Notes: generated by a model from the letters alone, not told the origin. A stretch of 46,250 nt of DNA from a virus (IMGVR_UViG_3300036766_001071:1-46250); one strand, 5' to 3'. Positions 2,768 to 46,250 are shown, counted from the first letter of the stretch. Numbers and translations are program-made.

Positions 2768-2973
2768 TGCGGCATCTTGTGCAGACGGTGCCGTTCAACC
2801 ATCGCGATGACGGGCAGACCGGCTACGAGGCGCAGATGGAGAGCGTGATGAACGATGCGGTGAATCGAGGCTGGACGCTCGGGCGCGTCTGGCAGGTGAA
2901 GGAGGACCTGGGGCCGGGAAGCGTGCCTCGCGTCACGATCACGCTGCTGTTCGAGCGTGCGATCATCGCCTGA
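2764..2973 (+). CDS. small protein, DUF4177-like pattern
   Basis: 69 aa starting MMRHLVQTVPFNHRDD, with its ATG overlapping the stop of the preceding gene (ATGA), so the two are probably translationally coupled. The pattern YEAQMESVMNDAVNRGW-TL, a variable loop, then VTITLLFERA resembles the short alpha/beta DUF4177-like fold, in which a helix is followed by GW and a final beta strand ending in an arginine. That is inference from pattern only. It is the last gene before the terminator at 2996-3030. Confidence 0.6.
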   Translation: MMRHLVQTVPFNHRDDGQTGYEAQMESVMNDAVNRGWTLGRVWQVKEDLGPGSVPRVTITLLFERAIIA

Positions 2974-2995
2974 CGTGTTAGGGTGAAAAAGCGAA

Positions 2996-3030
2996 GGGGC
3001 GGCCCCATAGCCGCCCCGTTTGATGTTTTT
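2996..3030 (+). terminator. Rho-independent terminator
   Basis: Perfect 8-bp stem GGGGCGGC / GCCGCCCC with a CCCATA loop (2996-3017), followed by the T-rich tail GTTTGATGTTTTT. It lies 23 bases after the stop at 2973 and closes the unit 2216-2973. Confidence 0.85.
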
Positions 3031-3058
3031 GCTGTTTGAGGCGAGAAGCGTTTTGCGG

Positions 3059-4060
3059 ATGTTATCAGCATCCAGCGAACCGGTGCGCCAGTTCTTTTAT
3101 ACCATGCCGGCCGCTGCCCATCGCGATTCCTTCAGCCAAGACTCGCTACCGGTCTGCCTCGGCAACGGGAATCCCAACAGACTGGTGACGCTGTGGGACA
3201 TCGTGAATTACTTCGATGCGCTTCAATTCGGCCTATTCATCAACGAGCTTGGAAAATGGCACGCCGCGGCGTTGATCGACAGGGATGAGGGTCGGCAATG
3301 TTCGACGGTCACCGAGGGAGCGCTGGGCACGGTGAGGAATCTGCGAATCTTTTGCGAGGCGATCGCATTCGAGCAGTGTTATCAGCTCACCGTCTTTTCC
3401 GAAAAACACTTGTTGGATGCTCCAAGCGTGGGGGTCGTCGCCAACGAGATGACGCACCTGAAAGAAAGTCTTATAGGGGAAACCAGCAGCCGCCGCTTTC
3501 TCTACGTGCGCAACGACAGATCGGGCTTGCTGGACCAGAAGTCTCTATTCGGGCTGAAAGTGTATCGGGCTTTTCCCTCTGCGCGGAAGGATATCAGGGA
3601 AGCCGGCAACTGTTTGGGAGCGGAGAACAACACGGCCGCGGTCTTCCATCTGATGCGCGTCGCCGAGTATGGGCTGAGGGCATTGGCTCGCGATCGTCGA
3701 ATCACGCTGTCCAAGAAAGGTGTCTTGGAGCTCGCAACCTGGGAACAAATCATCAGGCAGATCGAGGAGGCTGAAGTCGCTATTCAAGGGTGTCCGAAGA
3801 CGCTCGCGCGGGAGGCCCAGTTCGAGTTCTATCACGGCGCGATGATGGAGTTCAAGAGATTCAAAAACAAGTTCCGGAATCGGATCATGCACACCAGGGA
3901 GGAAGAGTACGACCGGGACGAGGCGCTGAGTGCATTCAATCATGTGCGCGATTTTATGAGGATTCTCGCATCGAGGATTTCAGAGTTACAGCGAACGCCG
4001 TTGGTCTGGAGGGGCAAGAAGTGGACTACGGGAATGGATTCCTCGCGATCCGTGCGATGA
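3059..4060 (+). CDS. HEPN-domain protein, possible RNase/abortive-infection type
   Basis: About 333 aa. The C-terminal 150 residues have HEPN character: NTAAVFHLMRVAEYGLRALA, a long helix, then FRNRIMHTREEEYDRDEA. The R-N-R-I-M-H segment (CGG at 3875, CAC at 3890) fits the Rx4-6H signature of HEPN ribonucleases, with the favoured polar residue after Arg. The N-terminal half is unrecognised. The start is uncertain: TTG/ATG at 3020/3023 would lie in the terminator tail, so I use the ATG at 3059; 3104 is also possible. None has a good Shine-Dalgarno. With terminators on both sides it is an independent unit, as expected of a lysogenic-conversion or defence gene. No adjacent MNT antitoxin partner is seen. 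Confidence 0.7.
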   Translation: MLSASSEPVRQFFYTMPAAAHRDSFSQDSLPVCLGNGNPNRLVTLWDIVNYFDALQFGLFINELGKWHAAALIDRDEGRQCSTVTEGALGTVRNLRIFCEAIAFEQCYQLTVFSEKHLLDAPSVGVVANEMTHLKESLIGETSSRRFLYVRNDRSGLLDQKSLFGLKVYRAFPSARKDIREAGNCLGAENNTAAVFHLMRVAEYGLRALARDRRITLSKKGVLELATWEQIIRQIEEAEVAIQGCPKTLAREAQFEFYHGAMMEFKRFKNKFRNRIMHTREEEYDRDEALSAFNHVRDFMRILASRISELQRTPLVWRGKKWTTGMDSSRSVR

Positions 4061-8896: not shown

Positions 8897-9355
8897 ATGA
8901 GCGCGCCGAAGCGTGGGCGTGCGCTACCAAGAGGGCGCAGGGAGCCATTCGCGCCCCACGAATTAGCGTGGGAAAGAGAGCTGAACCGCATTAGCTACAC
9001 GAACACACCAGCTTCGTTTTCCAACGTGCTGCAGGCGTGTCCTGGTATTGCGTCGGTGGCGGTAGACTACATTTTTCGTCGCACCGTGGGCGCATTCACC
9101 CGCGGGGTGCGGCCCGAGTGGCTGCGCCTAAGCGACGCCGACGCCGGAAAGGCCTTCAACTGCTGGGCCACTGGCGCGGCGCGGGCGCTGGGTGAGGCTG
9201 AGAGGGTCGGCGCGATCGAGTCGCGCCAAGTGGCGAGCTACACAGAGTATCGCGTGCTGCTCGAAAATTGGCCGAACATCAAGCCCAAGGCGGCGCGCAA
9301 GCTGGCGCCCAAGCTCCGGCCACATGCGAAGGTTGAGTCTGGGGGGGCGAGATGA
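8897..9355 (+). CDS. hypothetical early protein
   Basis: 152 aa beginning MSAPKRGRALPRGRREPF; GAGCAGGT lies at suitable distance before the ATG. A basic N-terminus is followed by helices (ELNRISYTNTPASFSNVLQ, AFNCWATGAARALGEAERVG) and a basic C-terminus. It is the first gene of the early rightward unit and overlaps the next start by ATGA. No family recognised. The basic character and its place beside a replication-type protein suggest nucleic-acid work, as inference. Confidence 0.6.
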   Translation: MSAPKRGRALPRGRREPFAPHELAWERELNRISYTNTPASFSNVLQACPGIASVAVDYIFRRTVGAFTRGVRPEWLRLSDADAGKAFNCWATGAARALGEAERVGAIESRQVASYTEYRVLLENWPNIKPKAARKLAPKLRPHAKVESGGAR

Positions 9356-18893: not shown

Positions 18894-19147
18894 ACGTCAA
18901 GACGCGGCCGCCGCGACCACGCTACGACCGGACGGATCTGGAGGAGCTGCGCTCGACAGTGGCCTCGGGCGGCTGGCAGATGTTGCGCGAACGGCTGACG
19001 CAAATGGTCGAGACCGAACGGCTGAACTGCGAGACGGCGGCGGCGCTCGACGAGATGCGGGCGGCCCAGGGGGCGGTTCGAGCGCTGCGGAGGGTGCTCG
19101 AACTTCCCTCGATCCTCGAGCGCGAGATTCGCGCCAAGGAGCGATGA
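18890..19147 (+). CDS. small helical hypothetical protein
   Basis: 85 aa starting MNVKTRPPRPRYDRTDLEEL, nearly all helical and strongly charged (MLRERLTQMVETERLNCETA), ending in a probable coiled coil. Overlaps both neighbours by ATGA. Unknown function. Confidence 0.6.
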   Translation: MNVKTRPPRPRYDRTDLEELRSTVASGGWQMLRERLTQMVETERLNCETAAALDEMRAAQGAVRALRRVLELPSILEREIRAKER

Positions 19148-20907: not shown

Positions 20908-21141
20908 ATGCCGAAACAGACAACCAGGAAAGCGAAGCCACCCGCCGCCGCGCCCGCGCCCGAGCCACCCCCCGCCCCACAGGAGGAAGACGTGACGGCA
21001 GCCAGCAAGCCCGACGACGTGCCCATCCATCCCGCGGACTTCGACGGCGACGTCGAGGACGACGTCGAGGGCCGCGCCCGCCGTCGCGCCGCGAAGTACC
21101 ACGCGCGCCGCGGCTGCCCGCCACCGCGGCCACGCCGCTAA
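20908..21141 (+). CDS. Pro/Ala-rich small protein
   Basis: 77 aa from ATG with GAGGT eight bases upstream. MPKQTTRKAKPPAAAPAPEP is low-complexity, then an acidic DFDGDVEDDVEG and a basic end (RARRRAAKYHARRGCPPP). Probably unstructured. It may be an auxiliary head protein; a GC-driven artefact cannot be excluded. Confidence 0.45.
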   Translation: MPKQTTRKAKPPAAAPAPEPPPAPQEEDVTAASKPDDVPIHPADFDGDVEDDVEGRARRRAAKYHARRGCPPPRPRR

Positions 21142-23478: not shown

Positions 23479-24462
23479 GTGGGAACGACCAATTTTGACG
23501 TGATCCAAGCGAACGCCTTCCTCGGGGCGCAGTTTTTGACCCAGGGGCGAACGTGGTACGTGAAGCCCCGTACCGGGTCCGACGGAGCGGACGGCAAATC
23601 GCCGCGCACCGCCTTCAAGACTCTGGCCCAGGCGCTCTCGGCGGCGACCGCCAACCAGAACGACGTTGTCTTTCTGTTCGCCGAGGGGAACAGCTCGGCC
23701 AACTGCACCGACTACCAGAGCGCCACCCTCGACTGGAACAAGGACCTCGTGCACCTGATCGGCGTCAACGCCGGGGGGTCGATTTCCCAACGGTCCCGCG
23801 TGGCCCTTTTGTCCACCTATGACACGGCGTCCAACCTGTTCACCTTGAGCGCGAACGGCTGTCTCATCGCCAACATTGCCTTCTACGCGGGCGTCGCCGG
23901 CACCAATCCAACCGGATGCGTGAAAGTGACGGGCAATCGCAACCGCTTCGTGCGCTGCCACCTGGTGGGCATCGGGAACACCGCCAACGATATCGCGGGC
24001 GCCTACTCGCTCAAACTCGACGCGGCGGAAGAAAACGAGTTCGACCATTGCGTCATCGGCCTGTTCACCGTCGCGCGCGGCGCGCAACTCAACGCCGAGA
24101 TTCTGTTCGACACGGCGGCCAAGGAAAACCTGTTTGAGAACTGCCGCATCGTCTCGCAGGTCTCGCACGCATCCAATCACGTGCTGGTGGAAGTGGCGGA
24201 CGCGACCGGCGTCGACGCCTTCAACTACTTCCAGGGCTGTAAGTTCCTCTACCAGTCGGCCAACTACGGAGCGGCCGCGACGGGGGTCATGCGCCTGCCC
24301 GCGCTGACGCAAGGCTATCTGCTGGTCGACGCCAATTGCGCCACGATGTCGGACGCGCCCGGAACGCTCATCAAATGGGACGTGAACGACAGGAACAAAA
24401 TCGCGATCGTGGGGGCCGTGAAGCCCGCGGGCGATACATCGAACGTGGCCCTGCTGGTCTAG
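23479..24462 (+). CDS. parallel beta-helix protein next to capsid
   Basis: 327 aa from GTG, with AAAGGAG upstream. It opens VGTTNFDVIQANAFLGAQFL, then RTWYVKPRTGSDGADGKSPR, a motif common to right-handed beta-helix proteins (GxDxxxGxSPxxAFxTLxxA). Repeating rungs follow (NRFVRCHLVGIGNTAND, NEFDHCVIGLFTVARGAQLN, NLFENCRIVSQVSHASNHVL). The fold is used in phage spikes and polysaccharide-binding proteins; here its site between capsid and connector genes suggests a capsid-surface or head-fibre protein. No catalytic residues can be assigned. Confidence 0.75.
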   Translation: MGTTNFDVIQANAFLGAQFLTQGRTWYVKPRTGSDGADGKSPRTAFKTLAQALSAATANQNDVVFLFAEGNSSANCTDYQSATLDWNKDLVHLIGVNAGGSISQRSRVALLSTYDTASNLFTLSANGCLIANIAFYAGVAGTNPTGCVKVTGNRNRFVRCHLVGIGNTANDIAGAYSLKLDAAEENEFDHCVIGLFTVARGAQLNAEILFDTAAKENLFENCRIVSQVSHASNHVLVEVADATGVDAFNYFQGCKFLYQSANYGAAATGVMRLPALTQGYLLVDANCATMSDAPGTLIKWDVNDRNKIAIVGAVKPAGDTSNVALLV

Positions 24463-24477
24463 CGAGAGGGGGTACTC

Positions 24478-24825
24478 ATGGCCCGCAATCGCACAATCAG
24501 CGCAACTGTCCTCAACGGAGCCACCGGGCTATCGGCGGCGATCTTCCTGGGCGATCAGGTTCCCGTGCGCATCCAGATGTCCACGGGCTGGAGCGCCGCC
24601 GATCTCACGTTTCAGGTGTCGGCCGACGGAACGACCTTTTTCGACAAGTACGACGGCCCGGGCGGCTACGAATACACGATCAAGGCCGCGGCATCGCGGT
24701 CGATCGACCTGAATCCATCCGACTGGCTCGGCGCGAGCTGGATCAAGGTACGCTCGGGGACCACGGGGACGCCCGTCAATCAGGGCGCGGACCGCGCGCT
24801 CACCCTCGTCGTCCGGGAGGTGTAG
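24478..24825 (+). CDS. beta-sandwich structural protein
   Basis: 115 aa from ATG with GAGAGGGGG upstream. MARNRTISATVLNGATGLSA, then VPVRIQMSTGWSAADLTFQV, DGTTFFDKYDGPGGYEYTIK and IKVRSGTTGTPVNQ. The pattern SxWxAAxLTFQVSxDGxTF occurs repeatedly in phage structural operons and suggests a small beta-sandwich, probably decorating the virion. Not assigned to a named family. Confidence 0.65.
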   Translation: MARNRTISATVLNGATGLSAAIFLGDQVPVRIQMSTGWSAADLTFQVSADGTTFFDKYDGPGGYEYTIKAAASRSIDLNPSDWLGASWIKVRSGTTGTPVNQGADRALTLVVREV

Positions 24826-24827
24826 CC

Positions 24828-25571
24828 GTGCTGGCGAGCGTGTTGGCCAAACGCCGCCTTCGCTCGCCCGTCGGGCTGGCGTCGGAATACCTCCTCGACG
24901 CGGGGGCCGCCGCATCGACGCAGGTGATTACCGACTCGATCGGGGGGCGCGACGGCCAGCGCGGCTCAACCTCCGGGGCGACCTCGAACGATCCCACCTG
25001 GGTCGCCGAGGGCCTCTCGTTCGACGGCGGCGACTTCGCCACGCTCGGCGACGCCTCGACGTGCATTTGCGCGCACGACACCGATTCGTGGACGTTCCTC
25101 GTTGTCGTGAAGCGCAACGCGACGGGCGCGAATCACCAGCTCTTTCAGGCGCGGAAAATCACCGCCAACAACATGGGCGTCGATTTCTACATCAAGAGCG
25201 ACAACACTCTGGTATTTCGCGTCTCGGGCAACGACGGCACCCAGGAAAACAAGACGACGACCGGCACGGTCGCAGACACCAACTGGCACGTCATCGCCGC
25301 CTCCTACAACGGCGTGACCAAAAAGGCGCGCCTCATCCGCGAGGGCGCGGGCGGCTTCCGCGAGAATACACAGGCTTTCGTCAAGACGTGGACGATACCG
25401 TCGGGTAACTTCGACCTCGGCGCGTTCGGCTCCTGGGCCTCGACCAATTACCTCAACGGGCGCATCGCCTACGTCGCGATGTGGTCGCGCGCCCTCGGCG
25501 ACGCCGAGATCACGCAGGCGTGGCGCGCGCTCCAGCGCGTCGCGGCGGTGAAAGGCATCACGCTGCAATGA
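24828..25571 (+). CDS. LamG/concanavalin-like lectin-domain protein
   Basis: 247 aa from GTG with GGGAGG upstream, two bases after the previous stop. The body shows the LamG/jelly-roll logic: GLSFDGGDFATLGDASTC, TDSWTFLVVVKRN, a beta-strand series (VDFYIKSDNTLVFRVSGNDG), NWHVIAASYNGVTKKARLIR and the closing YLNGRIAYVAMWSRALGDAE. That ending (G.I..V.iW.RAL.d.Ei) is diagnostic of concanavalin-A-like laminin-G-type domains. It probably binds surface glycans on the virion exterior. The C-terminus overlaps the next start. Confidence 0.8.
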   Translation: MLASVLAKRRLRSPVGLASEYLLDAGAAASTQVITDSIGGRDGQRGSTSGATSNDPTWVAEGLSFDGGDFATLGDASTCICAHDTDSWTFLVVVKRNATGANHQLFQARKITANNMGVDFYIKSDNTLVFRVSGNDGTQENKTTTGTVADTNWHVIAASYNGVTKKARLIREGAGGFRENTQAFVKTWTIPSGNFDLGAFGSWASTNYLNGRIAYVAMWSRALGDAEITQAWRALQRVAAVKGITLQ

Positions 25572-38121: not shown

Positions 38122-41100
38122 ATGGCGGATAATCTCCTCAATCCCGACGATTTCATGCGGCAGTGGAAGCCGCCGGCGCCGGAGCTCGACCCCGACAGCT
38201 TCATGCGGAGCCTTCAGCGGCCGAGCCAACCGGCGACGGCCGCTCGCCCGAAGATCCCCGGTACCGAGCTGACAGGCCTTCCCGCGCCCTACCTCGTCGA
38301 GGGCGCGAAGATCGAGGAGATTCCCGAGCCGCCGCCCGACACGCGATCGGTGTGGCGCAAGGGCGCCGACATCGTGGACGCCTTCATGGGCAAGACGAGC
38401 CGCGCGGCATGGCAGACCGTCGAGGGCGCGGCCAACTTCGGCGAAGCGCTGGGCTCACAGATGGTACGCGAGAAGCCGACCGGCGGCGAGGGGACCGTTC
38501 TCAAGGGCCTGGGGCGCGAGTTCGGCGACATGGCGCGCAAGTTCCAGGGAGCGGGTGAGGCCGTAGGCAGCGACCGCCTCCCCGAGAACCGCAACCGGGC
38601 CAAGCACGATGTCGGCTTCGCCGACGCTTGGACGCAGAACCCCGAGCTGCTCTGGGACCCCGAATGGTGGTCGGGCAAGATGGGCGAGGCCGTCGGCTCG
38701 ATGATCCCGTTCGTCATGATGGGCGTGGCGGCGGGGCCGGCAGCGGCGGGCGCGGCGGAAGGCGTCGGACTGAAGGGGGAAGCCGCGCAATTGTTCACCG
38801 CGCTCGGCCAAAGCAGCGCGATGAGCGGCGTCGAGCTGGCTGTGGACGCTGGGGCGAACTACCGCGATGCCTTGGAGAAGCATGACGCGCAGCCGGCTGC
38901 CGCGTGGAAAGTGCTCAAGGACACCCTGCTGCTCGAAGCGCTCCCCACGTTCGGGCTGAACTACATCGGTTTCTTCGAGCCGCACATCAAGGCGTGGATG
39001 AAGGAGACGGGCAAGGGACTCGTCACGCGCATGGCCGTGCGGGCGGCGACGGGCGCCCCCGCCGAGGGGCTTCAGGAAGTGCTTCAGGGCGCGGGCCAAC
39101 GGACCGCGCTCAAACAGAACCTCCCGCCCGAGGAGGCGAAGAAGGTCAAGGTATGGGGGCCGGAGTCGATTAATGAGGGCATCCTCGGCGCGCTCGGCGG
39201 CACGGTCGCCGGCCCGATCTTCGAACATGGCGGCGAGCACGGTGAACAGGCAACGCCCAAGCCCAACGTGCGGCAGCAAGACACTGGCCTACCGCAACCC
39301 GACATCGCGCCGCCCACGCTGTTCGACCAGGAGCAGCCCGCGCCGGCTGAGCGAGCCCCGAAATCCGCCCCGGCTCCCAAGGCCGCGCCGGAGACGCCCG
39401 ATTCGTTCATGGAGCAGCGCGCCGCGGCCGAAACGGAAGCGGCGCCCTCCGAAACGGTCGAGACGAAAGGCGAGACGAAGCCGGCGGCCGTTAGCCCGGT
39501 CGCCCCTGTTGACCAGGGTGACCAGGGTGAGAAGGGTGCGCGCGCCGCCGAGCCCACCGGCATGGAGGCCGTGCTCGGCCCGGCCCGCGCGCTGGCGAAG
39601 CGCGAGGGAAAGCTCAGCAAGCAGGGCCTTCAGAACGCGCTCGGAGTGAACAAGAAGAAGGCGGGTGAAATCTTCCAGGCGCTCGTCGCCGACGGCACGG
39701 TGAACTCACTCGGCAAGTGGCAGGCGCCGGAGGAAGCCGCGCCCACGCAAGACTTGGCTACCGAGGAGGATCTGCCGGAGGGGACACCGGCCGAGATCCC
39801 TCCGGAGCGCTTGGGCAACGTCGGGAAGGTGACTACCGTGCGCGGCACGGAGGCCGACACGCGCTATGCCGTCGTCGAGGCCGACGATCTGACCGTCTCG
39901 CACGACCTGCAAGGCGAGCCGACCGAGGCTTACCCCGCGCCGCTCCAGCCCCGCGATCGCACGCGCAAGGCGAGCCAGGTCCAAATCGCCGACATCGCCG
40001 GTAAAGCCAACTACGGCCAGCTCAACGAGAATGCGCTGCCCAATTTCGGCGCGCCCGTCGCCGGGCAGGATTTGAACGTCGAGGCGGGCAACGGCCGCGT
40101 GAACGGGCTGCGCATGGCCTACGACCGCGGCCTGCCCACCGCCGAACGCTACAAGAGCGACTTGGCAGCCGACAGCGAGACGCACGGCATCGCGCCCGAA
40201 GTGATCCAGGGCATGAAGAAGCCTGTCCTCGTGCGCGTCCGCACCTCGCCGGTCAACCGCGTCCAGTTCGCCCGCGAGTCCAACGAGGACCCGCAGCAGG
40301 GGATGAGCCCGGCCGAGATCGCCCACATCGACGGCGGGCGCGTGGGGGCCGTCCTCGACAAGTTCGACCCTGATGCCGACATCTCGGCGCCCGCAAACCG
40401 CGATTTCGTCCGCGCCTTCATGGGCGGGGTGGTCTCGGCCAGCGATCGCGCGCGGCTGATGACTGACGACGGGTCGCTCTCGCAGGAGGGCGCGCGGCGG
40501 ATCCGCAACGCCGTCTTCGCCCGCGCCTACGGCGACCCCACCGCCATCGAGACGCTCACCGAGGCGACCGACGACAACATCAGGGGCGTCACGAGCGGGA
40601 TGCTGCGCGCGGCCCCGGCGCTGGCGAAGGTCAAAGAGGGCATCAAGGTCGGCGCGCTGCACGACCGCGACATCGCCCCGGACGTTGCGACGGCGGCGCG
40701 TAAGCTGAGCTGGTTGCGGCAGCGCGGCACGCCGGTGGAAACCTATCTCGCGCAACAGGGCATGTTCGGGCAGGAGATCACGCCCGAGGCCAAGGAGCTG
40801 CTTCAGGTCTTTGCCGAGCACGGCCGCGCGCCGCGCCGCGTGGGCGACGTGCTCACCGAGTTCGCGCGTGCGGTGCAGGACATAGGCCACCCCGCTCAAA
40901 AGGGCCTGTTTGGTACTACAGCCCCGCCAAGCAAGGGGGAATTGCTTCAGGGCGCGATTCAGCGCGTAATAGAAAAGGAGGCCCCGGGTGGCCAAAGAAA
41001 CGTACAAGCCGCGGTTCCTCAAGAACAACAACCCGTTCCAGGTGAAGCGCGTGCTGATGATGCTGCGCAAGTTGGACGGAATGGACCCGCTGACGGGCAA

Positions 41101-44100
41101 GCCGCCAGTGAGCAAGGAAAATCAGCCGCCGCCCAAGAAGGGCAACCCGGTCGTCCCCTTCCCCAGCAAGTAACCCCCCGCCTGCCGGGCGAGCTGGCAG
41201 GAGCGAAGCCGCGCTACGCATTCGGCAACAAGCAGTTTGAGCTGGATTTCGCCAGCGACCTCGACAAAGCCGCCTATATCGCGGCGCAGCTCCAGCGCTC
41301 GAAGAGCGACGCCAAGTACGTCGCCTTCGTCCGCCAGCACATGGGTGGGGACGAGCGCGCCGCCCGAGCGCTCGGTTCGCAAGTCCGGGCGCGGATCAAG
41401 GAGCTGGCGCGAACCGCCGAGCCGGGCGTGTTGCGCATCGAGCCGGTGCTGCGGGCGCGACCCGCCAGTGTCACCCCTGCTGACAAGGGTGCGCCCCCGA
41501 GGAAGTCCACCCCCAAGCCGTCAAGTAAACTTGACACCGCGCCGTCGCTGTTCGACGAGACCGCGCCTGCGCCCAAGTCGGAAGCAGCTCAGAAGCCCGC
41601 CGCTTCCGAGCCGGCTGCCGAGCCCGAGAAACTTACTCCCGCCGAGGAAGCTGCCGCGAACGTCGAGCGCTGGCGCGTCAAGGCGGAAGCGGCCGAGAAA
41701 CGCATCGCCGAAAAGCTCAAAAAGCTGGCTGGCGACACCTCAGGCGAGCTGCGCCCGGAGGCGTTCGCGCGGGTCGTCCAGGCCGGAGCGGAAAAGTTTG
41801 CCTCCGGACTGCGCAATTTCCGCGACTGGGCGCGGGCGATGCTGGCCGACTTCGGGGAGCGGATCAAGCCGCACTTGCTGAAGCTGTGGCCGCGGGCGAA
41901 AGAGGCGGCGGCGGTCGAGGGGCGCCGGCGCGAGCTGATTGCGGATGTTGCGGGTGGACCGGCCTACGATCCGAATGCCAGCTTCGAGCACAAGGCCCGC
42001 GAGGCGCGGGCGTTTCTCCACAAAGAGGAAGGCCACCCCCCGGCGGTTTTCGTCAACCCGCAGGCTTTCTCGGTTCTGTGGTCGACGATTGGTTGGCGAG
42101 GGGAAGGACCGGACGGCTTGACACTGACCCCCTGGATGGGCCGATTTCTTCGGCGCGCGATGATCCGCCAGCGTTTGGGCGCACGCGACGCCGCTATAGC
42201 AAGCAAGCTGAAGCACCTTTCCGAGCTGGTGAACCGCGCATCACAGAACCGTGAGGGGAACCTGGGATCAGCCCCGGTAATCCTTGTCCGGTACACGCCC
42301 GGCCACACCGACGAGATGATCCGGCAGACTCTAGACGAGGAGCGGGCACACCACAAACAGATTCTGATTACAGGTGAGTTCATCGACCTGATCGACAACC
42401 AAGCATTTTTCGCCGATGACGCCGCGAAGCGCGCCGGCGAGAACATGAAGCGGTCGGGTTACCCCGATAACCCTTCGGTGTTGGCGGCCGAGATCGGCGC
42501 GCGGCTCATGGCGCCGTCGATCAGTCACGAGTTGGGACTAACGTACCAGGAGCAAACCAGCCTGGCGGCTCTTTACACCGAGCTTCTGGTCGATAAGAAT
42601 GGAGAGAGAGCGAATGACGTCAACCAAACCATCGAAGGCAACTACCATCTCCTGCCCCGTCAGGAGCGACGGCGTGCAGACCAGCTACGTGATCGAGGAA
42701 GGGACCGGCAGGATCCTGGCGGTCGGGACGACGATTCACAGGCGCTCAGCTCTCGCAAGCCCCGCCAAGACTCCCTCTTCGACGCCGGAACCCGCGAAGA
42801 AGTAGCCGCCGGTGCCGCGCGCGATCGCGCCGCGCTCGAAGGCGACCGCCTCTCGGCCGAGTTCAAGTCCCCGCTCAACCGCGGCAACCGTCGCACCCCG
42901 CTGAAGCCCGCGCTCGACACCGGCGCCGGAAACCTGTTCGGCGAGGAGCCCAAGCAGGGGAATTTCTTCGAGCGGCTTTCGTCCGACACCTCAGGCGAGA
43001 TGCGCCTGGACGGTCCCCGGACGACAGCAGGTCTCACCGCGCGCGAGCGGTTCATCGAGACGGTGGTGAACGCGCGCGTGCGCCGCGACCCCGAGCGCCT
43101 CTTCCAGGAGTACGAGAACCAGTTCGGCGCCACGGTGAGCAGCGACCGCGCCGCGCGCCTGTTCCCCGAGTACAACAAGTCGAACGAGCACCGCACGCGC
43201 AACCGGCGCGCGGTTCACGCCGCGGCGCAGTGGATTGCCGATTCGGTCTACTGGCGGCTGCTCGAGCGGCCGGCGAAGGGCGACGTAACTTTCACTGCTG
43301 GCGGAACTGGCTCCGGGAAGACGACAGCGTTGCGGTTGGCTGGCGGACAAGCCGAGATCACCTACGACACCACGCTGAACAGCTTTCCCTCGGCGGTGGA
43401 ACGAATCGACGCGGCCCTCAACAGCGGGCGAAACGTCCGCATTGAGTACGCCTACGCCGAAGCAACGGAAGCCTTCCGGCGTGCGCTCGGTCGCGCCGCG
43501 AAAACAGGCCGCGTGGTTCCCGTGGACTACCACCTGATGACGCACAGGGAATCGCGCCGCACAGTCGAGCGGCTGGCCGAGCACTACGCGGGCGATCCGC
43601 GCGTCGGGTTCCGATTCAACGACAACTCTGGTACGTCCGCACACCAGATGACTATTGAGGAGCTGAAAGCACTCCCGTACACTGGAGATAGAGAGCAACT
43701 CGATGCCATCCTTCGATCAGAACGCGAAGCCGGACGAATCAGCCAACTCGTCCACGACGAAACCGCCGGTTCCCAGGGATCCGGAATTCGAGAAACGCTG
43801 CGACGAGGAACAGGCCGCGATGATCGAGAGTCTGAAACGCTGGCGGGAGATGCCGGTCGAGGAACTCTACTAGACCCATCCACTCCGGAAGGGTTCGCTC
43901 ATCACGCCCGCGCGGGCGCTGAAAAGCTCGCCTCGGGGCTCACCCGTTTCACCGACTGGTCGCGGTCCATGCTCGCCGACTTCGGGGAGCGGATCAAACC
44001 TCACCTGTTGAAGCTGTACCGCGAAGCGCAGCGGCTTTGGAAGGACACCTCGGGCGAGGTGCGCAAGGTCAGCCGCGAGCAGTTCAACGAGCTGCTCGAC

Positions 44101-46250
44101 GACCTGAAGACGGTCGGCGCGGAAAAGATCGCTTCCGGCTATACGCGCCTGGGGCGGTTCACCGACGCCATGGCCGGCCAGTTCGGCGAGTGGATCCGCG
44201 AGTACGCCGGCGAGCTGCACGAGGCATCGCTCGACGCGCTCAAGGGGACCGGGAAGCCCGCCGCGCCCGAGCCGGCTGCCAAGCCGGAAAAGCCCTCGCC
44301 AGAGGCGGGGAAGCGCACGGCCGATGCCAGCGGGCCGATTAGGGAGCCGAAGCAAAGCGGGTCCACAACGCTGGGCTCCGGGCTGGGCGCATTCGAACCG
44401 TACCTGCGCGAGGCCTTCGCGGAGATGAAGGATTTGAAGGCGAAGAGGGACGCGGCGCTGGCGGAACTGGAAAGGGCCAAGGCCGCGCCTGGCGAGAAGA
44501 AGTTTGGGCAGAGAGTCATCGAAGCCTTCACCGGCGAGCGCGATTTGTGGTCGGCGCGGGTGAACCAGGCCATCGACAAACTGCGGCGCATCGTTCCGAA
44601 GCCGGTCGACCAGGAAGCGCTGTCGCTGATGCGCGAGTACCGCGACCATCCCGAGGAACTGAAAGCGTGGCTGGGCGAGACGCCCCCGCTGCGGTTGGAT
44701 TTGAGTCCGGAGGACCGGACTGCGGCGGAGCGCAACATCGAACGGATGCGGCCGGCCATCGAGCGGGCGCTGAAGCCGACCGAGGCGATGAAGGCGGCGG
44801 ACAGCGTTCTCACGAAGATCGCCGGCGAGACGCTGCGCGAGGGCCAGCGGTTGGGGTTCCTCGAGAGCCGCTGGACGCCGGAGCAGTACGCCCCGCACAT
44901 TCTGCACCCGAAAGGTGAGGGCGAGGTGGCGGCGCCGACCTCGGATCGCCTGGGCCGCGCCATGGGCGGGAAGATTGGCAAGTATTTTGCATTCGCGGAG
45001 ACGCGCGGCTATCCCACGCTGCTCGACGCGGTGGCGGACAACGTGAAGCCCAAGACGCTGAACGCCTTCGACGCCTTCACGATCCACGGGGACAAATTCG
45101 CGACGGCGCGCGCCACTCACCTGCTGGTGAATCAGATCAAGGACACGGGCGTGGGCATGGTCGAGGCGGATCGTTTTAAACGGCCGGAGGGCTGGGTGGA
45201 GCTGGCCGGGCACTCGCCGGAGTTCCGGACGCCGCAGCAGTACACGGATGCAAACGGCGAGCCTGCCGTCCTGCACGTGCCGCTGGTGGTTCCGAAGTTC
45301 ATCGACGACGCGCTGAGGCCGGTCACGGATCCGGACTACCTGGGAGCGCTGCCGGGTTTCCGCAAGCTACGCGTGTTTCAGGCGTACACCAAGGCGATCC
45401 AGCTCGGGCTGTCGATGTTTCACGCCACCACCGAGAACTACATGGCGCTGGCGAACATGGGGCCGCGTGGATGGCTGCGCGGGTTGAGGGCGGATCGCAC
45501 GTCTCCGGAGTTCGCGGCCGAGGAGCGCGATTTCATTTCGCACGGCGGGACGACCGCGGTGCAGGGGAAGACCGTCGAGGCTTATAAGAGCTTTGAGCCC
45601 GGATCGATCCCAACGTGGAGCGAAATCTGGCGCAGGGCGCCGGTGGTGCGCGAGATGGACGCTGCCGCACAGAAGGTGACGGACTTCACCTTCGGGAAGC
45701 TGCAACGGCAGTTCAAAATCACCGACTACGCGATGCACAAAGCGCAGTGGCTGGCGAAACATCCGGACGCCACGGCGGCGGAAACGGCGGCTGCCATGAG
45801 CAGCATCAGCAAAGAGATCAACGCGGTGTACGGCGGCCTGCACTGGGAGAATCTGGGAGTGAACAAGGCCAGCGTGGAGGTGGCCCGGGCGCTGATGCTC
45901 GCTCCGGACTGGACCTTTTCGAATGTGTTCAACGTGAAGTACGCGTTCGAGCGCGGCACGCCGGCGGGAAGCCTCGCGCGCAGGTTTTGGATGAGGCAGC
46001 TCATTGGGGGAATGATCGCCACGCAACTGCTGAGCCTGCTGCTATCGAAGAAGCCTTCGAACAACCCGACGCAGGTTTACATGGGGAAGGATCCGCACGG
46101 CAAGGATATTTACCAGAACGTTTTCTTCAAGGGTGTTTCGGGCGACGTTCTGAACCTGGTCCACAACGTCGGGGACTATGGCGCGGTGGAAGGCCTGGCG
46201 CGCACCATGGCGGGCAAGGGAGCTCCGGTGGTGCGGGCCGGCCTGCAACT
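38122..46250 (+). CDS. giant polyvalent protein, open at right edge
   Basis: More than 2709 codons with no stop. N-terminus MADNLLNPDDFMRQWKPP repeats the motif PDxFM, and GSMIPFVMMGVAAGPAAAGA is hydrophobic. Residues about 580-930 carry a DdrB/ParB-superfamily-like domain (YAVVEADDLTVSHD, LQPRDRTRKASQVQIADIAG, GQDLNVEAGNGRVNGLRMAY). Residues about 1700-1860 form a zeta-toxin-like P-loop domain with Walker A GGTGSGKTT at 1727-1735. A module EKxASGxxxFxDWxxxMLAD-FGERIKPHLLKL occurs at about 1224, 1934 and, weaker, 2001. The C-terminal third is helical with hydrophobic patches (QLIGGMIATQLLSLLLSKKP). Such multi-domain phage polyvalent proteins are thought to be injected with DNA. Three small genes lie nested in its linkers. 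Confidence 0.88.
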   Translation, partial: MADNLLNPDDFMRQWKPPAPELDPDSFMRSLQRPSQPATAARPKIPGTELTGLPAPYLVEGAKIEEIPEPPPDTRSVWRKGADIVDAFMGKTSRAAWQTVEGAANFGEALGSQMVREKPTGGEGTVLKGLGREFGDMARKFQGAGEAVGSDRLPENRNRAKHDVGFADAWTQNPELLWDPEWWSGKMGEAVGSMIPFVMMGVAAGPAAAGAAEGVGLKGEAAQLFTALGQSSAMSGVELAVDAGANYRDALEKHDAQPAAAWKVLKDTLLLEALPTFGLNYIGFFEPHIKAWMKETGKGLVTRMAVRAATGAPAEGLQEVLQGAGQRTALKQNLPPEEAKKVKVWGPESINEGILGALGGTVAGPIFEHGGEHGEQATPKPNVRQQDTGLPQPDIAPPTLFDQEQPAPAERAPKSAPAPKAAPETPDSFMEQRAAAETEAAPSETVETKGETKPAAVSPVAPVDQGDQGEKGARAAEPTGMEAVLGPARALAKREGKLSKQGLQNALGVNKKKAGEIFQALVADGTVNSLGKWQAPEEAAPTQDLATEEDLPEGTPAEIPPERLGNVGKVTTVRGTEADTRYAVVEADDLTVSHDLQGEPTEAYPAPLQPRDRTRKASQVQIADIAGKANYGQLNENALPNFGAPVAGQDLNVEAGNGRVNGLRMAYDRGLPTAERYKSDLAADSETHGIAPEVIQGMKKPVLVRVRTSPVNRVQFARESNEDPQQGMSPAEIAHIDGGRVGAVLDKFDPDADISAPANRDFVRAFMGGVVSASDRARLMTDDGSLSQEGARRIRNAVFARAYGDPTAIETLTEATDDNIRGVTSGMLRAAPALAKVKEGIKVGALHDRDIAPDVATAARKLSWLRQRGTPVETYLAQQGMFGQEITPEAKELLQVFAEHGRAPRRVGDVLTEFARAVQDIGHPAQKGLFGTTAPPSKGELLQGAIQRVIEKEAPGGQRNVQAAVPQEQQPVPGEARADDAAQVGRNGPADGQAASEQGKSAAAQEGQPGRPLPQQVTPRLPGELAGAKPRYAFGNKQFELDFASDLDKAAYIAAQLQRSKSDAKYVAFVRQHMGGDERAARALGSQVRARIKELARTAEPGVLRIEPVLRARPASVTPADKGAPPRKSTPKPSSKLDTAPSLFDETAPAPKSEAAQKPAASEPAAEPEKLTPAEEAAANVERWRVKAEAAEKRIAEKLKKLAGDTSGELRPEAFARVVQAGAEKFASGLRNFRDWARAMLADFGERIKPHLLKLWPRAKEAAAVEGRRRELIADVAGGPAYDPNASFEHKAREARAFLHKEEGHPPAVFVNPQAFSVLWSTIGWRGEGPDGLTLTPWMGRFLRRAMIRQRLGARDAAIASKLKHLSELVNRASQNREGNLGSAPVILVRYTPGHTDEMIRQTLDEERAHHKQILITGEFIDLIDNQAFFADDAAKRAGENMKRSGYPDNPSVLAAEIGARLMAPSISHELGLTYQEQTSLAALYTELLVDKNGERANDVNQTIEGNYHLLPRQERRRADQLRDRGRDRQDPGGRDDDSQALSSRKPRQDSLFDAGTREEVAAGAARDRAALEGDRLSAEFKSPLNRGNRRTPLKPALDTGAGNLFGEEPKQGNFFERLSSDTSGEMRLDGPRTTAGLTARERFIETVVNARVRRDPERLFQEYENQFGATVSSDRAARLFPEYNKSNEHRTRNRRAVHAAAQWIADSVYWRLLERPAKGDVTFTAGGTGSGKTTALRLAGGQAEITYDTTLNSFPSAVERIDAALNSGRNVRIEYAYAEATEAFRRALGRAAKTGRVVPVDYHLMTHRESRRTVERLAEHYAGDPRVGFRFNDNSGTSAHQMTIEELKALPYTGDREQLDAILRSEREAGRISQLVHDETAGSQGSGIRETLRRGTGRDDRESETLAGDAGRGTLLDPSTPEGFAHHARAGAEKLASGLTRFTDWSRSMLADFGERIKPHLLKLYREAQRLWKDTSGEVRKVSREQFNELLDDLKTVGAEKIASGYTRLGRFTDAMAGQFGEWIREYAGELHEASLDALKGTGKPAAPEPAAKPEKPSPEAGKRTADASGPIREPKQSGSTTLGSGLGAFEPYLREAFAEMKDLKAKRDAALAELERAKAAPGEKKFGQRVIEAFTGERDLWSARVNQAIDKLRRIVPKPVDQEALSLMREYRDHPEELKAWLGETPPLRLDLSPEDRTAAERNIERMRPAIERALKPTEAMKAADSVLTKIAGETLREGQRLGFLESRWTPEQYAPHILHPKGEGEVAAPTSDRLGRAMGGKIGKYFAFAETRGYPTLLDAVADNVKPKTLNAFDAFTIHGDKFATARATHLLVNQIKDTGVGMVEADRFKRPEGWVELAGHSPEFRTPQQYTDANGEPAVLHVPLVVPKFIDDALRPVTDPDYLGALPGFRKLRVFQAYTKAIQLGLSMFHATTENYMALANMGPRGWLRGLRADRTSPEFAAEERDFISHGGTTAVQGKTVEAYKSFEPGSIPTWSEIWRRAPVVREMDAAAQKVTDFTFGKLQRQFKITDYAMHKAQWLAKHPDATAAETAAAMSSISKEINAVYGGLHWENLGVNKASVEVARALMLAPDWTFSNVFNVKYAFERGTPAGSLARRFWMRQLIGGMIATQLLSLLLSKKPSNNPTQVYMGKDPHGKDIYQNVFFKGVSGDVLNLVHNVGDYGAVEGLARTMAGKGAPVVRAGLQ
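40988..41173 (+). CDS. nested +1-frame gene 1 in polyvalent gene
   Basis: 61 aa from GTG, with AAAAGGAGG six bases upstream, an almost ideal ribosome-binding site. The product (MAKETYKPRFLKNNNPFQVK, LMMLRKLDGMDPLTGKPP, ending PVVPFPSK) has normal composition, with Lys/Asn/Phe. By hand count 55 of 61 codons end in G or C here, but only 22 of 62 in the main frame, which reads as Gln/Ala/Gly-rich linker (about residues 956-1018). Codon usage therefore says this frame is the selected one. No family recognised. Confidence 0.68.
   Translation: MAKETYKPRFLKNNNPFQVKRVLMMLRKLDGMDPLTGKPPVSKENQPPPKKGNPVVPFPSK
42614..42805 (+). CDS. nested +1-frame gene 2 in polyvalent gene
   Basis: 63 aa from MTSTKPSKATTISCPVRSDG, preceded by GGAGAGAGAG; a start five codons earlier is possible. 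SYVIEEGTGRILAVGTTIHR looks like a compact beta-hairpin core, with a Ser/Pro/Ala tail. About 50 of 63 codons end in G/C against about 40 of 64 in the main frame, where the sequence is an Arg/Asp-rich linker just before the zeta-like domain region. Evidence is weaker than for the other two nested genes. Confidence 0.5.
   Translation: MTSTKPSKATTISCPVRSDGVQTSYVIEEGTGRILAVGTTIHRRSALASPAKTPSSTPEPAKK
43703..43873 (+). CDS. nested +1-frame gene 3 in polyvalent gene
   Basis: 56 aa: MPSFDQNAKPDESANSSTTK, then PPVPRDPEFEKRCDEEQAAM and IESLKRWREMPVEELY, ending at TAG. A disordered N-terminus leads to an acidic amphipathic helix. 43 of 56 codons end in G/C, against 24 of 57 in the main frame over the same bases. 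A GAGAG seven bases upstream is a modest ribosome-binding site. It begins just after the zeta-like P-loop domain, so an antidote or regulator role for that domain is conceivable, without homology evidence. Confidence 0.62.
   Translation: MPSFDQNAKPDESANSSTTKPPVPRDPEFEKRCDEEQAAMIESLKRWREMPVEELY

Follow-up and report, generated by a model that had tools for sequence, protein, structure and literature searches.

The virus sequence analysed here (IMGVR_UViG_3300036766_001071; all 46,250 nucleotides of it are referred to below as the window) contains, inside a very long gene for a polyvalent protein, a complete 61-codon frame with a ribosome-binding site of its own, and the question that this locus raises is whether such a frame is a gene in its own right. 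Judged from the sequence and its relatives, positions 40988–41173 are very probably a real, translated nested gene, an estimate that leaves its function aside. The features concerned are:

38122..46250, + strand, polyvalent-protein gene (main frame), ATG start, at least 2709 codons, Pfam ddrB-ParB match (1.9e-28), exits the window
39805..40980, + strand, extended conserved ddrB region, residues 563–953, match to phrog_5143, the anchor for comparisons
39844..40242, + strand, ddrB-ParB domain PF18763, residues 575–707, Pfam E = 1.9e-28
40973..40981, + strand, Shine-Dalgarno (SD) sequence AAAAGGAGG of the putative nested gene, followed by the 6-base spacer CCCCGG before the GTG
40988..41173, + strand, putative nested gene, 61 aa, GTG to TAA, in the +1 frame of the polyvalent gene, with a homologue in L011 (see below)
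41146..41400, + strand, next conserved main-frame block past the linker, common to Macromonas phage BK-30P

The main frame runs from the ATG at 38122 to 46248 (2709 codons) and is still open at the end of the window, in agreement with an earlier count of more than 2700 codons. With PF18763 in a large multidomain frame and with head, terminase and tail spike genes nearby, its product is a DdrB-like polyvalent protein, a class described by Iyer et al. 2017 (PMC5512222). Residue 953 (base 40980) closes the conserved ddrB block and the nested start lies 7 bases past that end, so the nested gene begins at the exact edge of the domain. The block at 41146–41400 also matches an internal virion protein of Sphaerotilus phage R1. 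Farther downstream, main-frame residues 1745–1822 (window 43354–43587) match a zeta-toxin-like P-loop kinase (PF06414, E = 1.1e-7), and residues 1922–1970 are about 69% identical to another segment of the same protein (DTSGEVR-type repeats), which suggests a module duplication.

The preliminary description of this DNA had placed the nested frame correctly to the base, with its GTG at 40988, its stop codon at 41171–41173 and its SD at six-base spacing. The SD overlaps the main-frame residues IEKEAP, the last ones of the conserved ddrB block, and forms a duplex of −11.6 kcal/mol with the anti-SD sequence. GC occurs at 34, 22 and 55 of the 61 nested first, second and third codon positions, and at 22 of 61 main-frame third positions, so the reversal of third-position GC that had been counted by hand stands on recounting; the main-frame residues over the nested ORF are indeed a linker, directly after the extended ddrB domain. 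Main-frame GC at positions 1/2/3 is.71/.48/.89 in the 900 nt upstream,.90/.56/.36 over the nested ORF and.73/.52/.81 in the 900 nt downstream. For comparison, 12 linker segments from elsewhere in this gene, matched to the nested stretch in composition and overlapping each other, have a main GC3 that averages.80, and none of them is as low as the nested stretch itself (about.37).

Three other nested frames in the window may be mentioned here. Among its larger genes just one nested ORF has a stronger SD than the ORF at 40988: the ATG frame at 24478–24825 (+), 115 codons long, whose SD is very strong and which lies +1 to ORF 24336–25571. Since the PHROG match of the latter spans residues 199–410 only, 24478–24825 is probably an ordinary gene of its own, and the true start of ORF 24336–25571 probably lies downstream of it. 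The frames at 20908–21141 and 18959–19147 (both +) are +1 ORFs in larger ORFs, with good SDs and raised nested third-position GC.

It had been proposed to look for the 61-residue protein in phage proteomes; searches against phages and viral contigs returned no match, and a relative surfaced only through the main-frame domain. The sole close relative found by a scan of genome contigs for that domain is L011, a phage contig binned in a Bryobacterales metagenome-assembled genome, and a family search of 297 genomes from the phylum of its host found just two more ddrB genes. The main frames of the window and L011 are about 73% identical over the ddrB domain. At the end of its domain L011 has a nested ORF in the +1 frame (9184–9339, 51 aa, ATG, preceded by GGAGAAAGAGAATCCCG), and the two nested proteins align as NPFQVKRVLMMLRKLD and NEFRVQKVLMALRKRD, with 44% identity over 36 aa (E = 3e-5). 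Substitutions between the two are even over main codon positions 1/2/3 (16/16/17), so the selection signal of the window's own pair is only moderate. The polyvalent frame of L011 (6405–17351, at least 3649 codons) is of phage type, with ddrB-ParB, strawberry-notch helicase and methyltransferase-like domains.

Further evidence comes from the recurrence of such ORFs at the same place. A first set, 80 viral loci from an alignment of the ddrB region together with phage and plasmid records, comprised 93 loci in 80 clusters, 70 of which have a long main frame beyond the ddrB domain and constitute our non-redundant long ddrB-ParB genes. Each was scanned along the main frame for +1 ORFs of 40–110 codons with an SD duplex of −5 kcal/mol or stronger and a start within 45 nt of the position considered. 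In 64% of the 70 long genes an SD-led +1 ORF of 40 or more codons begins at the end of the ddrB domain, against 0–16% (mean about 7%) at other main-frame positions, and no SD-led ORF was found at the domain end in the +2 frame (0%). Synonymous shuffling of the long genes leads one to expect 16 nested ORFs in 69, compared with 45 observed. A replication set of 35 further viral loci, all less than 85% identical to the first set, gave the same picture: 16 of 35 (46%) have a nested ORF at the domain end, against 0–19% elsewhere, and the +2 frame again gives 0%. The window fits this positional class, with its +1 frame, its SD, a start no more than about 45 nt from where the domain ends and a length between 40 and 90 codons. 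Other carriers include the cultured Pseudoalteromonas phage vB_PalP_Y7 (OR791114.1, nested ORF 2956–3087) and the Acinetobacter plasmid-prophage pANC7919.1 (nested ORF at 39777–39932 of the record).

Homologous phages with the main frame intact and the nested frame missing had been named beforehand as evidence against a gene, and they exist: 18 of the 70 long clusters have an intact main frame and no detectable nested ORF, and thus the nested gene is not universal. Set against the conserved nested homologues elsewhere, these absences indicate gain and loss and not an artefact. Short main genes, whose frame ends shortly past the domain, seemed at first to lack nested ORFs altogether (0 of 10), but this proved wrong in the larger set, where 13 of 41 short-type clusters have one. 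The ddrB genes of L223 and L231 have a different extension of about 240 codons past the domain and no nested ORF.

The 51 nested products are 40–90 aa long (median 56) and mostly basic (median pI 10.4); the start codon is ATG in 43 of the 51, the SD spacing is usually 5–10 nt, and the second residue is mostly A, S, T, P or Q. Iterated HMMs built from two nested subfamilies each collect about 46–50 of 105 nested ORFs, yielding two large sets, one of the NPKMRRA type and one whose members have two helices joined by a D/N-x-P turn. Neither large-set profile truly matches any of the 1732 remaining +1 ORFs in these genes; the few apparent matches turned out to be nested ORFs as well, located at the domain end and led by a weaker SD. 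A profile comparison of the two main alignments showed no link. The subfamily of the window (profile F5, pattern NPxxVxxxRxLxRQ) consists of the window, L011, L020, L021 and L027, all of them seeds, with L013 marginal; the F5 profile recruited no member beyond its five seeds and had one borderline match (E = 0.009) among the other +1 ORFs. Its subfamily has no hhalign link to the largest (NPKMRRA) one (probability 4%), and the window protein is hit by neither the F1 nor the F3 profile and has no match in PHROGs, Pfam, NCBIfam or PADLOC; other nested subfamilies gave weak matches only in family searches, and a PDB search with the A5 subfamily profile gave a best E of 0.014. AlphaFold predicts, at low confidence, one helix at residues 15–29 of the window protein (pLDDT 65) and two main helices around the NP turn in the NPKMRRA subfamily (pLDDT 73). 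The window product is best read as a small, basic, partly helical protein of 61 residues without a known relative in the family libraries.

The DNA of the overlap carries the signature of two frames. In all 44 of 44 GC-rich loci main GC1 exceeds GC3 over the nested ORF, compared with 9 of 44 upstream, and the same holds for 16 of 16 loci in the replication set. The average of main GC3 over 45 loci steps down at precisely the nested start codon (.60 before,.36 after) and up again at precisely the nested stop codon (.44 before,.67 after), and its mean is.46 in the nested region versus.57 in composition-matched linkers elsewhere in the same genes. Because the high GC1 and the basic charge partly follow from a linker rich in A, P, E and Q, we put the weight on the fall in GC3 and on its sharp edges.

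Comparison of substitutions frame by frame among homologues, proposed in the preliminary description as a check, bears the nested gene out, with changes shifted toward nested third positions. In 19 phylogenetically separate pairs, aligned blind to frame, main positions 1/2/3 have 241/218/194 substitutions across the nested region, against 336/249/764 across the adjoining ddrB region on its upstream side (contrast by Wilcoxon test, p = 1.9e-6). The excess of position 1 over position 3 in the nested region is modest (p = 0.014); it points to constraint on the nested frame, where a relaxed linker alone would also even out the positions. In a wider group of pairs the identity over the overlap is 0.57 in the nested frame, 0.40 in the main frame and 0.42 in the non-coding third frame; these pairs were chosen by nested similarity, which biases the level of the nested value and leaves the comparison of main with third frame unbiased. 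On the best reading of these data the nested frame would carry most of the constraint in the overlap, and the main frame there would be a poorly conserved, low-complexity linker. At the level of sequence comparison, then, the existence of the nested gene, its position, its homology between loci and selection on its frame are established.

How the overlap arose is a question within this interpretation. The two options suggested at the outset were a real gene overprinted on the main frame, which recurrence, homology, codon-position composition and the substitution pattern strongly support, and a main frame fused through a once-separate gene, which is a matter of origin and has partial support. 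According to the latter, which is compatible with overprinting, the nested gene is the older and formerly separate one, and the linker came from extension of the ddrB frame through it; we would lean neither toward nor away from this. It is in keeping with the low conservation of the main frame, which in the overlap is about that of the third frame, and with the lengths of short-type tails past the domain, which are 118–144 codons (median 128) with a nested gene and 49–110 (median 88.5) without, some 40 codons shorter, with one exception (p = 1e-6). On the other hand, a linker that grew first, with the gene arising in it, predicts the same difference in length; proteins of the NPKMRRA type, the best-conserved subfamily and the one searched for, occur in 2.9 million viral contigs in the nested position only, with no free-standing relative; and the presence of the nested gene is scattered over the ddrB tree, requiring 14 changes, so that the tree does not separate gain from loss. 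The longer tails imply that the nested gene tends to bring extra DNA, which the main frame reads as linker, and we favour, short of proof, the view that the main-frame linker is a by-product of the nested gene.

Chance could in principle produce such an ORF, with a linker rich in A, P, E, Q and G keeping open a +1 frame rich in K, R, Q and P, and the SD being coincidental. In the window alone this has some appeal: an equally long SD-led +1 ORF appears in about 25% of synonymous shuffles of its main frame, so that the length of the ORF is by itself no evidence, and the strength of the SD and the GC reversal are more telling. The basic character of the product is also partly codon arithmetic, and main GC3 is lowered in some other linkers as well. 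Chance nevertheless becomes very improbable in the face of the position-specific excess and its replication, the homology of nested proteins between loci, the sharp switch of codon composition at both the nested start and the nested stop, and the +2 frame, which never has an SD-led ORF at the domain end.

Another way to account for a +1 ORF that directly follows the ddrB domain is a programmed +1 frameshift: prfB shows that an SD-like motif can make ribosomes slip forward by one base, and slippage near the motif here would end the ddrB protein early, on a few residues from the nested frame. This we regard as highly unlikely and have discarded. The +1 frame is closed at a median of 9 codons upstream of the nested start (2–4 codons in about a quarter of the loci), a start codon, ATG in most loci, is kept at the usual distance from the SD although its own distance to the domain varies by tens of bases, and the change in codon composition begins right at the start codon. 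A start codon at normal SD distance together with upstream +1 stops favours independent initiation over frameshifting. That the nested ORF might instead be a translation element (for ribosome loading, for a fresh start on the C-terminal half of the polyvalent protein by reinitiation, or as a pausing site) would suit a strong SD within a very long gene but is extremely unlikely, as the nested product is conserved in its amino-acid sequence and an SD-led main-frame start lies at the nested stop in just 1 of 51 loci, with no excess, for which reason reinitiation there was also discarded.

We therefore return to a nested gene with its own start. With independent initiation favoured and main-frame restart lacking, the nested gene is expected to be translated from the late mRNA of the polyvalent gene: ribosomes would start independently at its strong SD, and main-frame ribosomes would read across it as low-complexity linker. 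Its independent initiation and translation are what we infer from these features.

Phages are known to carry genes arranged in this way. In the spanin genes of lambda, the small gene Rz1 is embedded in the +1 frame of the larger Rz, and the window's nested gene is likewise small and in the +1 frame of a larger phage gene. Rz1, however, is an outer-membrane lipoprotein of the lysis cassette, whereas the nested gene sits in a virion polyvalent gene, and its 61-aa product has no cysteine, lipobox, signal peptide or N-terminal hydrophobic stretch and so is not a spanin of the Rz1 kind. In phiX174, gene E is overprinted with its own ribosome-binding site inside the virion gene D; E is a membrane lysis protein, whereas the ddrB-nested proteins are short and basic and have no long hydrophobic segment. 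Phage P1 also has an annotated gene inside a ddrB gene, iddB, but it runs antisense to ddrB and falls inside the domain region (L012 3980–4378), and where the domain of P1 ddrB ends there is no +1 nested ORF; iddB was for these reasons discarded as a precedent.

In Iyer et al. 2017 (PMC5512222), the founding work on polyvalent proteins, a term search finds no overlapping or nested gene; the word "overlap" is absent from it, "nested" occurs twice, and the passage displayed concerns a hairpin structure. The open full-text library that was searched contains no description of a ddrB-nested gene. The nested gene is also missing from the annotations checked, because gene finders normally drop small ORFs that lie wholly inside larger ones. 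The family thus appears so far unrecognised, its novelty falling short of proven.

That dozens of unrelated phages share this nested gene and its location means that it very probably encodes a real, unrecognised small protein. These genes are best read as a widespread set of overprinted microproteins, encoded directly after the extended ddrB domain in many phage and prophage lineages. Whether this unrecognised family is standard equipment of many ddrB-type phages, perhaps as an obligate partner and with the linker largely its by-product, seems to us evenly poised. It is a tentative guess, and a rather doubtful one, that the nested protein might be a stoichiometric partner (for example, a chaperone or packaging adaptor) of the co-transcribed polyvalent virion protein. 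A nested gene at one place in dozens of lineages would mean that long overlaps are stable and common in phage structural operons, and the ddrB-nested overlap would be a clear test case for deciding which of two frames is under selection. Polyvalent-protein systems form a major class of the anti-host effectors that enter together with phage DNA, and the nested gene would also supply them with a missing component.
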